Part shown: positions 23,173 through 26,650 of the stretch, one piece after another
Layout: every line of letters starts with the position of its first letter
How positions within the stretch are numbered: position 1 is the stretch's first letter
Notes under the pieces: model-generated
The model's input: only the letters and a program-made list of their open reading frames with translations
Told to the model about the DNA's origin: nothing
The model's database searches: none
Source of the DNA: a virus
DNA: 26,650 nt
Reading direction: 5' to 3' (one strand)
Virus record (IMG/VR): IMGVR_UViG_3300031952_002857
Location: 1-26,650 of that record
Program-made: the position numbers and the translations under genes

Positions 23173-23215
<43 letters not shown>

Positions 23216-23349: not shown

Positions 23350-24402
23350 ATGCCGCGCCAAGCCAAGCCCTGGTATCGCAAAAGCGATGATCACTGGTAT
23401 CTGAGCACCATGCTGAAGGGGAAGCGGGTCCAGTTCCGACTCGCTCGTGGCAAGGACAATCGCCCGGCAGCATTCCAGCGTTACCACGAGATCATGGCCG
23501 CTAAGCCGGCGGCTGGTCCGGTCCAAAGGCCGCTGGGGATCGAGGGGGCCGTGCTGGACATCCTGGATGCCTTTCTGCTGCACGTTCAAAGGAACCTTGC
23601 GGCCACAACGCTGGAATGGCACAAGCGATATCTAAATGATTTCGCCGGAGATCTCTCGGATGGCATGCTCGCGGAGCAACTGAAGGTCCACCACTTCACG
23701 GCCTGGCTCGATGCTCACGAGGACTGGGGAGATTCCAGCCGATCGGCGGCAACGCGGTCGATTCGCACGGCATTCAATTGGGCAAGGAAAGAGGAATTGA
23801 TAACCGGCCATTCGCTTTGCAACATCTCGGCGCCGGCCACCCCCACTCGCGAAACCATTCTTGATCAGCCGGAGTTTGATCGGCTGCTCGCCGAGATCAA
23901 GGATCCTGATTTCAAGGAGGCGGTACAATTCGTTTGGCTCACTGGAGCTCGTCCGCAGGAACTGCGAATTATCGAGGCTCAGCACTGTGCGACGATTGGC
24001 GGCATCTCGAGGATCATCCTGCCCCCGTCCGTGTCCAAGGGGAAGAAAGGGAAGAAGCGAGCACCGCGCGTCATCTATCTGAGCGATGCGGCTCTTGAGA
24101 TCGTCGACCGACTCTGCCGGCTGCGTCCCACTGGTCCGATTTTCCAAAACAAAACCGGCCCGTGGAATAAAGACAAGATCCGCCAGAAGTTTCGACGCAT
24201 CAAGTTGCGAACAGGAACGGGGTATTGTCTCTACAATCTGCGGCATTCGTGGGCCACCGAGGCACTCACCAACGAAGTCGATTCAACGACAGTTGGCGTG
24301 CTGATGGGGCATAGCAACCCAGCGATGGTAAACAAGACCTATCAGCATTTGGCGAAGCGGCCGGGGTATCTCCAGAAGGCTGCGGAAAAGGCGAGGGGCT
24401 GA
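23350..24402 (+). CDS. int: Tyrosine recombinase (phage integrase)
   Basis: This 350-aa site-specific recombinase would integrate and excise the phage at the tRNA site just upstream. The N-terminal part shows an arm-binding-like segment (WYRKSDDHWYLSTMLKGKRV), then a core-binding helical domain (residues about 65-165). The catalytic domain has R201 in TGARPQEL, K230 in VSKGKKGKK, YNLRH with R298, H321 in LMGHS and nucleophile Y331 in NKTYQHL. Box II has Tyr (Y295) where His is common, a tolerated variant. GGAGA at 23339-23343 supports ATG 23350. A strong terminator follows. Confidence 0.95.
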   Translation: MPRQAKPWYRKSDDHWYLSTMLKGKRVQFRLARGKDNRPAAFQRYHEIMAAKPAAGPVQRPLGIEGAVLDILDAFLLHVQRNLAATTLEWHKRYLNDFAGDLSDGMLAEQLKVHHFTAWLDAHEDWGDSSRSAATRSIRTAFNWARKEELITGHSLCNISAPATPTRETILDQPEFDRLLAEIKDPDFKEAVQFVWLTGARPQELRIIEAQHCATIGGISRIILPPSVSKGKKGKKRAPRVIYLSDAALEIVDRLCRLRPTGPIFQNKTGPWNKDKIRQKFRRIKLRTGTGYCLYNLRHSWATEALTNEVDSTTVGVLMGHSNPAMVNKTYQHLAKRPGYLQKAAEKARG

Positions 24403-24436: not shown

Positions 24437-24521
24437 CTCTTGGCATTCTCCCCCTCTCTATGCGACCATTTCGCCTGCTGAGGGTAAGCGGTTGTTTGCA
24501 CAAGACAGAAATCGAATTAAT

Positions 24522-24582
24522 CCGTTGTCCGCGCCTTCGACCGTCCCTCAGCAAGACACGAAGCGGGCAACGGATTTTTTTT
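24522..24582 (+). terminator. Intrinsic terminator of the integrase transcript
   Basis: CCGTTGTCCGC (24522-24532) pairs with GCGGGCAACGG (24563-24573) with one G-U pair, and an inner CTTC/GAAG extends the stem. A and eight T follow (24574-24582). This is the clearest terminator in the window. Confidence 0.85.
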
Positions 24583-24594
24583 GTTGCCCGGAAT

Positions 24595-24629
24595 GAAAAC
24601 ACCCAGCCGAGATTGCTCAGGGCTGGGTG
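24595..24629 (-). terminator. Intrinsic terminator for the minus-strand excisionase unit
   Basis: CACCCAGCC (24600-24608) and GGCTGGGTG (24621-24629) form a perfect 9-bp stem. Read on the minus strand it is followed by TTTTC (24599-24595). It lies about 310 bases beyond the end of the HTH gene and would also stop antisense transcripts before the integrase. Confidence 0.65.
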
Positions 24630-24702
24630 CGACTTGAAAGCTGAAGACCGCGCGTCGGTCAGTTCCTCACTTTTGCAGGGTCAGGACTGATCGGCTCGCT
24701 TC

Positions 24703-24775
24703 GCCCCCGTAGCTCAATGGATAGAGCACTTCTTTTGCGAAGACGGAGATAGAGGTTCGACTCCTCTCGGGGGTG
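24703..24775 (+). tRNA. tRNA gene, anticodon UGC, with arginine-like body
   Basis: The 73 bases fold as a cloverleaf: acceptor GCCCCCG with CGGGGGT, D arm GCTC/GAGC, 7-base anticodon loop TTTGCGA with anticodon TGC, T arm AGAGG/CCTCT around TTCGACT, G at 73. CCA is not encoded. The anticodon reads GCA (alanine). However, pair 3-70 is C-G and not G-U, and the D loop AATGGATA is typical of arginine tRNAs. Pair 1-72 is G-U, and the anticodon stem has a U-C mismatch at 28-42. It could be an altered phage tRNA. It lies after the integrase terminator. Confidence 0.8.
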
Positions 24776-24806
24776 TTTCAGCGTTTCGAGTTTCGAAAGA
24801 ACTGTG

Positions 24807-24939: not shown

Positions 24940-25287
24940 CTACCCCGCTTTTGCCTTGGCCCTGGCCCGTTTCTGCACTTTCCGGCCCGGCTCTAATACG
25001 GCAAACTTTTTTGACTTTCGCCGCGGGGCGGCAGTCTCATTGGCTGGCGTGGGCTTTTGCGTGCGCCGTGATTCGATGTAGGCCGCAAGATCGCTGCGGT
25101 GGATGCGGCGGGCGCCTTCTTTGGGACCGAATGGGTAGAACGGAATTACCCCGGCATTCAGCAGATCCGTGACCGTCTGCCGTGATACGCACATGCGTTG
25201 TGCGGCTTCTCTAGCCGAAAGAAATTCCGGGGCATCGCCGACTTCAGGCTCCGTGACACATTCAGCGGAATTGGATGAATCAATCAT
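24940..25287 (-). CDS. Excisionase-family HTH protein
   Basis: This 115-aa protein carries one clear HTH_17/excisionase domain at residues about 21-75: EFLSAREAAQRMCVSRQTVT, DLLNAGVIPFYPFGPKEG, RRIHRSDLAAYIESRR. The C-terminal 40 residues are strongly basic (RRKSKKFAVLEPGRKVQKRARAKAKAG shortened: RRKSKK then KRARAKAKAG) and should bind DNA nonspecifically. Its place near the integrase suggests a recombination directionality factor or a regulator of it; the domain alone does not separate these. GGAGAG precedes ATG 25287 at good distance. It is transcribed away from the early genes, with a strong terminator at its end side. Confidence 0.75.
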   Translation of the reverse strand: MIDSSNSAECVTEPEVGDAPEFLSAREAAQRMCVSRQTVTDLLNAGVIPFYPFGPKEGARRIHRSDLAAYIESRRTQKPTPANETAAPRRKSKKFAVLEPGRKVQKRARAKAKAG

Positions 25288-25361: not shown

Positions 25362-25673
25362 TTATTTTGTACCTTTGCTTTTCTTTGCGAGTGCCTCTCG
25401 CCGGCGCTTCGCGTAATCGCGTTTCGCAATCATGCGATCTAGCGTCCCGTCCTCGACCGCTTCCATCATTTCGAACATATCGCGGTAGAGCTTCTTTAGG
25501 GTCGGTACTGCCCGAAGCCCCATCTTAATCTTGAGCGGAAGCCCGGTCTTCGGGATTTTCCCGCTATTTATCAACTTTTCCATACGTGTCAGGCCACGAC
25601 GAAATCGGATCACGACTTTCGTCAACGGCGTCACCAACTCGCTCCGCAATTTCTCGGGGCCGTAGTCTGGCAT
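25362..25673 (-). CDS. Unrecognised basic helical protein in the control region
   Basis: The protein is 103 aa from M 25673; AGGAA (25681-25685) precedes this start, while the longer reading to 25781 (139 aa) lacks a good site. The sequence MPDYGPEKLRSELVTPLTKV, FRRGLTRMEKLINSGKIPK, LKKLYRDMFEMMEAVEDG and a lysine-rich end (RREALAKKSKGTK) is helical and basic, with no recognised HTH. It is divergent from the early genes and lies where a repressor or antirepressor would be. That placement makes a regulatory role plausible, but the sequence does not show it. Confidence 0.5.
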   Translation of the reverse strand: MPDYGPEKLRSELVTPLTKVVIRFRRGLTRMEKLINSGKIPKTGLPLKIKMGLRAVPTLKKLYRDMFEMMEAVEDGTLDRMIAKRDYAKRRREALAKKSKGTK

Positions 25674-25806
25674 TCTCGAATTCCTGTATTTTCCCGGAAA
25701 CAACCATACAGCCTCCATGATAGCGAAACTGCAATGCTGGCAAATACTTGCGGCATTGTGAGAAAAATCCATTCCCGTCAATCTTGTCGATTTATTTAAT
25801 TAGTGC

Positions 25807-25834
25807 TTGACACATACTGACAGTTGAGTATCAT
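25807..25834 (+). promoter_or_regulatory. Early promoter with operator-like dyad
   Basis: TTGACA (25807-25812), 16 bases, TATCAT (25829-25834). The spacer holds the palindrome ACTG A CAGT (25816-25824), a likely operator half-pair. Transcription would start near 25841 and run into the leader RNA and early genes. A divergent minus-strand promoter may overlap this region. Confidence 0.6.
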
Positions 25835-25840
25835 GAGTAC

Positions 25841-25967
25841 CGTTGCGATCAGCGCACGTCAACCCAAAACCGGTCGTCTCGGACCGCTCCAATGCTGAAC
25901 ACGTATACGCCTGCCGGAGTTTTCACAGCGTCCGAGACCGCTGTGGATACCGGCAGGCGTTCTTTTT
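25841..25967 (+). ncRNA. Structured early leader RNA with intrinsic terminator and kissing loops
   Basis: About 127 nt from the predicted start to the T-run. Hairpin A: TGCG (25844-25847) with CGCA (25853-25856). Hairpin B: CGGTC (25871-25875) with GACCG (25882-25886), loop GTCTCG. Hairpin C is the terminator: ACGCCTGCCGG (25907-25917) with CCGGCAGGCGT (25950-25960), inner CACAGCG/CGCTGTG, an 8-base loop, then TCTTTTT. Loop B (GTCTCG) is fully complementary to CGAGAC (25933-25938) in loop C. A longer 9-base match, 25876-25884 with 25930-25938, also exists. The arrangement fits an attenuator or an independent small RNA. Confidence 0.7.
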
Positions 25968-26033
25968 CATCCCAGCCCGCCAGCATCTCACACGAGAGCG
26001 GCGGTGCTCTGGGGCATAGAGGAGAGGGAAATC

Positions 26034-26222
26034 ATGACAACCGTAGCCGACTACATGAACTCGATTCACAAGACGCTCAGCAAGGTCAGCAAGCGAATTG
26101 TTTTGGTGGACCCTGATGACAAGAACGAGGAATTGACGACCGCCTGGACCGGCGTCAATGACGCTGAAACCGAAGTCCGCGAAGTGGCGAAGATTCTCGG
26201 AATCAAACTGGAGAACTCGTAA
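26034..26222 (+). CDS. Small early protein
   Basis: This 62-aa protein starts at ATG 26034 after GGAGAGGG (26021-26028), a strong ribosome site. MTTVADYMNSIHKTLSKVSK, VDPDDKNEELTTAWTGVNDA and EVREVAKILGIKLENS describe a short helical, acidic protein. No family is recognised. It is the first gene after the structured leader and overlaps the next start by one base (TAATG), so it starts the early operon. Confidence 0.65.
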   Translation: MTTVADYMNSIHKTLSKVSKRIVLVDPDDKNEELTTAWTGVNDAETEVREVAKILGIKLENS

Positions 26223-26581: not shown

Positions 26582-26650
26582 ATGCAATACACCAGCCTGC
26601 CAATCGTCTTCCGAGACGATGACCGTGGCATCCAATACAGCGCGACCGCG
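26582..26650 (+). CDS. Early gene, truncated by the window end
   Basis: ATG 26582 lies three bases after the previous stop, with AAGGAA a few bases upstream. Only 23 codons are visible (MQYTSLPIVFRDDDRGIQYS...), and the frame is open to the last base. Operon spacing supports a real gene, but no function can be judged. Confidence 0.5.
   Translation, partial: MQYTSLPIVFRDDDRGIQYSATA

Follow-up and report, generated by a model that had tools for sequence, protein, structure and literature searches.

The window analysed here is the whole of IMG/VR record IMGVR_UViG_3300031952_002857 (26,650 bp). It encodes a GpA-type terminase, a portal and capsid genes, followed by an integrase, an excisionase-like helix-turn-helix (HTH) protein and small ORFs (Table 1). 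Capsid relatives, at 32–45% identity, are carried by other viral contigs and by planctomycete MAGs. The attP-like core upstream of the integrase recurs, with two mismatches or fewer, in 68 of 398 Planctomycetia genomes, many of the copies being exact, and ARAGORN calls a tRNA-Ala (GGC) at the core match in the one host locus checked. The capsid relatives, the presence of this tRNA-end core in Planctomycetia and an integrase family of that class together identify the record as a temperate phage of Planctomycetota, with a host probably in the class Planctomycetia. Temperate phages of planctomycetes seem to have received little study. The phage also carries a tRNA-Ala (TGC) of its own at 24702–24776, which differs from the host tRNA-Ala (GGC) that matches the core at the one locus checked.

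Phage sequence flanks the attachment core on both sides, so the segment near the right-hand end that concerns us looks like phage rather than flanking host DNA. Here a promoter-like sequence and two hairpins precede two rightward ORFs, with a further ORF diverging to the left; the latter contains, at 25449–25461, the third exact copy of GTCNNNGACCGCT in the window. The window stops at 26650, and further genes of the early operon, a repressor or antiterminator gene perhaps among them, would fall outside it.

Table 1. Features of the early region and of the integration module (positions in the window)
Feature	Position	Strand	Remarks
attP-like 39-nt core, from a tRNA 3' end	23177–23215	+	just upstream of the integrase
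Tyrosine integrase	23350–24402	+	family common in Planctomycetia, identity up to 41%
Excisionase-like HTH protein	24940–25287	-	HTH_17; phrog_66
Divergent ORF, 104 aa, function unknown	25362–25676	-	no relatives
Sigma-70-like promoter, TTGACA-16-TATCAT	25807–25834	+	11/12 consensus matches
Predicted terminated leader or short RNA, ~125 nt	25841–25967	+	predicted from the promoter and the terminator; z of the fold -4.64
Hairpin A, 5 bp, CGGTC-GTCTCG-GACCG	25871–25886	+	loop GTCTCG at 25876–25881; in the MFE fold
9-nt inverted repeat, left half GTCTCGGAC	25876–25884	+	
Intrinsic terminator hairpin, 11 bp + 9 bp	25907–25960	+	8-nt loop TCCGAGAC at 25931–25938, then TTCTTTTT
9-nt inverted repeat, right half GTCCGAGAC	25930–25938	+	
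First downstream ORF, 62 aa from ATG 26034	26034–26222	+	upstream Shine-Dalgarno-like GAGGAGAGG; phrog_16815 match sub-threshold
Second downstream ORF, 118 aa	26222–26578	+	phrog_1273 (unknown function) matched weakly, E 0.0011
TCCGAGACGA, 10-nt complement of hairpin A (25874–25883)	26610–26619	+	5' part of a third, truncated ORF

The predicted leader and its terminator

An earlier reading of the sequence alone had placed a promoter ahead of the hairpins and the whole unit before the first early gene. The near-consensus promoter confirms the former; position, strand and the strong Shine-Dalgarno sequence before 26034 agree with the latter, the order of the early genes being itself predicted. 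Promoter and terminator are 125 nt apart, and when the window was scanned together with 39 related phage or prophage loci for promoter-plus-terminator units, this one ranked highest for both promoter score and hairpin stability. Around the -10 element (25814–25839) lie operator-like repeats, ATACT...AGTAT together with two copies of TGAGTA 9 bp apart. An imperfect direct repeat (14 of 17 positions) relates 25830–25846, ATCATGAGTACCGTTGC, to the start of the first early gene at 26031–26047, ATCATGACAACCGTAGC. A leader peptide beginning at ATG 25833 was considered and set aside, as the codon shares positions with the -10 element and precedes the expected transcription start.

The computed minimum free energy (MFE) fold of 25841–25970 has an energy of -52.0 kcal/mol, equalled by none of 200 shuffled sequences, and includes both hairpin A, with the 6-base loop that had been described before, and the terminator. 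The latter comprises an 11-bp stem (ACGCCTGCCGG/CCGGCAGGCGT), a 4x2 internal loop, seven Watson-Crick pairs and the apical loop; the earlier 11+7-bp description is thus accurate for the Watson-Crick pairs, and two further pairs bring the upper stem to nine in the MFE fold. The hairpin has a stability of -36.7 kcal/mol and, as in a typical intrinsic terminator, a GC-rich stem is followed by a U-run, TTCTTTTT. A few hairpins as stable or more so are present in larger pieces of sequence, from four related phages and three integrase regions, and the strength of the terminator is by itself not unique. Of the 4227 Rfam models, applied at their gathering cut-offs, the only one to match the window is a tRNA, and permissive settings over 25700–26100 gave nothing below E 3.5, in agreement with the earlier statement that no known RNA family is recognised.

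We consider that this segment is probably the default-terminated leader of the rightward early transcript and the source of a short RNA. RNA polymerase would start near 25841, and most transcripts are predicted to stop in vivo, by default, at the intrinsic terminator and to end near 25967, yielding a structured RNA of ~125 nt. The early operon from 26034 would be fed by a minority of read-through transcripts, or by read-through promoted by a phage or host factor, since no second promoter-like site was found between 25968 and 26034 in a search for the sigma-70 consensus, which could miss other promoter types. The integrase, the attP-like tRNA fragment, the excisionase-like protein and the strong Shine-Dalgarno sequence before 26034 are all consistent with a temperate-phage leader. 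If the leader gates early transcription, it would offer an accessible entry to lysis-lysogeny control in the temperate phages of planctomycetes.

Complementarity between the two loops

The sequence-only reading drew attention to a complementarity between the loop of hairpin A and the apical loop of the terminator. This is borne out, and the true match is a perfect 9-nt inverted repeat, GTCTCGGAC (25876–25884) and GTCCGAGAC (25930–25938), such that the 8-nt terminator loop TCCGAGAC is complementary across its entire length to the hairpin A region. An 8-nt match between the terminator loop and the upstream 66 nt arose in 13 of 5000 dinucleotide shuffles (0.26%) and in 11 of 20,000 natural fragments; among natural 80-nt fragments, 0.0575% contained such a match. 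The single-test probability is thus about 0.0006 to 0.003 (0.06–0.3% of controls). Loop-loop matches of at least 6 nt were seen once among 670 hairpin-terminator pairs in 3.3 Mb of fetched loci, both strands counted, and none of the additional terminator-like sites from integrase loci and related phages had a loop complement of 8 nt.

Taken as a single test, the match is therefore rarer than expected by chance; it was, however, chosen post hoc from a 26-kb window, and its p values are those of single tests. Whether it is a coincidence we regard as an even question, and one compatible with the leader being an ordinary terminator-gated transcript. Very many features were inspected in the sequence-only reading, the window holds 52 8-nt inverted repeats spaced by 20–110 nt (overlapping ones counted separately), and the feature is absent from the relatives that were searched. 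Set against these are the low single-test p, the exact alignment of the match with both loops and the recurrence of the same theme at a second terminator, described below.

The searches for relatives covered IMG/VR, phage records, about 400 Planctomycetia genomes and Rfam, and revealed no homologue of the leader or of early ORFs 1 and 2. At the protein level, none of early ORF 2, the divergent ORF or the integrase had a match in IMG/VR, where the HTH protein gave two weak, partial ones; early ORF 2 had no match in GTDB genomes and one marginal match among 392 Planctomycetota genomes (E 7.6e-4, within a 695-aa frame). Matches of tblastn and blastn to phage records were at chance level only. A search of IMG/VR for the loop-pair pattern returned 118 stretches, which are taken to be chance matches, none of the fetched loci having both hairpins; stem patterns with the loops left free gave 0 matches. 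The sequence-only reading had proposed covariance-model searches with Rfam and with a custom model: Rfam provided no family, and the custom, single-sequence model recovered only the window itself from 26 related records. The same model gave nothing in 398 Planctomycetia genomes under stricter filters, which could miss weak matches, and nothing convincing beside 23 related integrase loci (best E 0.27).

Energetics of the competing fold

The sequence-only reading had likened the arrangement, kissing loops joined to a terminator, to riboswitch-like switches and some phage antitermination sites, and had noted that a 9-base version of the pairing would also break a hairpin that it named B. Folding of the growing transcript reveals that hairpin A forms first. 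For transcripts ending at 25938–25950 the most stable fold is a long-range one containing the 9-bp helix, 1.4 to 4.5 kcal/mol ahead of those in which hairpin A is retained, and from an end of ~25954 the terminator fold wins. The 9-bp helix does therefore compete, but once the terminator has been transcribed it loses (-35.6 against -52.0 kcal/mol), by 16.4 kcal/mol at 25970 and by 18.5 kcal/mol at 26060. Loop-loop pairing, for its part, leaves both stems intact. As the stems survive and the competing fold loses, there is no clear way for a switch in cis to act on the terminator other than kinetically. The loop match does not work in cis as an on/off switch at equilibrium, and the kissing-switch reading is weakly supported; what stands of the original proposal is that a promoter precedes the early genes, followed by a structured leader with a strong terminator.

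Should the loop match be functional, it could form a transient 9-bp helix during transcription, before the terminator is complete, and so act in cis by kinetic delay or antitermination. Alternatively, the released short RNA could act in trans, by pairing with early mRNA or with leaders still being transcribed, much as P4 CI RNA or Gifsy-1 IsrK do. We regard a functional pairing of either kind as rather unlikely. It is favoured by the perfect 9-nt match that spans the whole terminator loop at the p given above, by the alternative fold being the MFE fold at transcript ends 25938–25950, and by the 10-nt complement of hairpin A at 26610–26619 in an early ORF (with hairpin A taken alone p is 0.0086, with the whole leader 0.076). 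It is disfavoured by the undisturbed terminator stems, by the final deficit of 16 kcal/mol and by the failure to find leader homologues in the searched sets, with every test being post hoc.

A functional pairing also gains from the other strong plus-strand terminator of the window, at 24519–24576 after the integrase, which likewise has an upstream 9-nt loop complement (p 0.0017). Its loop holds CCCTCAGCA, complementary over 9 nt to 24476–24484, and the alternative helix has two parts, 24476–24484/24545–24553 (9 nt) and 24488–24494/24538–24544 (7 pairs). At a transcript end of 24582 the terminator and alternative folds are within 1.6 kcal/mol of each other (-41.6 and -40.0 kcal/mol), and the alternative forms first. 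The region 24460–24640, between the integrase and the tRNA-Ala, is thus bistable, with two nearly isoenergetic folds, and on this modelling its resemblance to a genuine attenuator or 3'-end control element, in this case for the integrase mRNA, is closer than that of the early leader. It is quite unlikely, in our estimate, that this planctomycete phage controls the early operon, and possibly the integrase transcript as well, by pairing an upstream hairpin with the apical loop of an intrinsic terminator, the released leader RNA acting in trans on that operon as an RNA-based immunity.

The repeats may instead belong to the DNA. The repeated element, TCCGAGAC or, as a direct repeat, GTCNNNGACCGCT, would then be a protein-binding site, and the RNA complementarity a by-product of opposed sites. 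This appears unlikely to us. TCCGAGAC is found three times in 26.65 kb, in both orientations and always in the last 775 bp (25876, 25931 and 26610), a clustering that would suit RNA regulation and a DNA operator alike. The two leader sites also form an 11/14 direct repeat, and GTCNNNGACCGCT is present in three exact copies (25449, 25876 and 25930) with no one-mismatch copies elsewhere. As the conserved GTC...GAC ends are palindromic, three further bases suffice for the seeming full complementarity. Neither leader copy, however, overlies the promoter: they lie 40–100 bp downstream, one of them inside the terminator loop, and the further copies at 25449 and 26610 sit within coding regions. Moreover, GTCNNNGAC is not enriched across the window (14 found against a mean of 9.75 expected), and the motif was picked post hoc.

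Comparison with known leader RNAs

The proposed default-terminated leader has features in common with three characterized systems. The attenuator of pT181 likewise has a loop-loop contact beside an intrinsic terminator in a 5' leader, but there an antiterminator captures the 5' half of the terminator's stem, and an antisense RNA is involved (PMC4878617). In the phage leader it is mainly the terminator loop that the alternative helix occupies, and this helix wins for truncated transcripts only, being 16.4 kcal/mol worse once the terminator is complete, and a sigma-70-like scan of the minus strand found no promoter-like site for an antisense RNA downstream of the leader, up to 26650.

In the Gifsy-1 prophage, a promoter gives rise to the short RNA IsrK, which is stopped at an intrinsic terminator with partial read-through into downstream genes (PMC4825925). 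This is the plan predicted for the phage leader, and in both cases the short RNA is complementary to the longer transcript; the partner of IsrK, however, is orf45, which lies beyond the terminator, and the pairing regulates translation (PMC4825925), whereas the main match of the phage leader is to the terminator loop. We found no sequence relation between the two.

The CI RNA immunity of satellite phage P4 would share with the phage leader an early operon whose untranslated leader is terminated before the genes and carries complementary sequences able to act in trans, and differs in that the processed CI RNA pairs with the flanking seqA and seqC (PMC4825925). The phage leader offers a single hairpin and a single terminator loop, with no more than one additional site, the complement at 26610–26619, which for trans action of the P4 CI or IsrK type is suggestive only. 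The likeness of the phage leader to the IsrK and P4 leaders is one of layout only.
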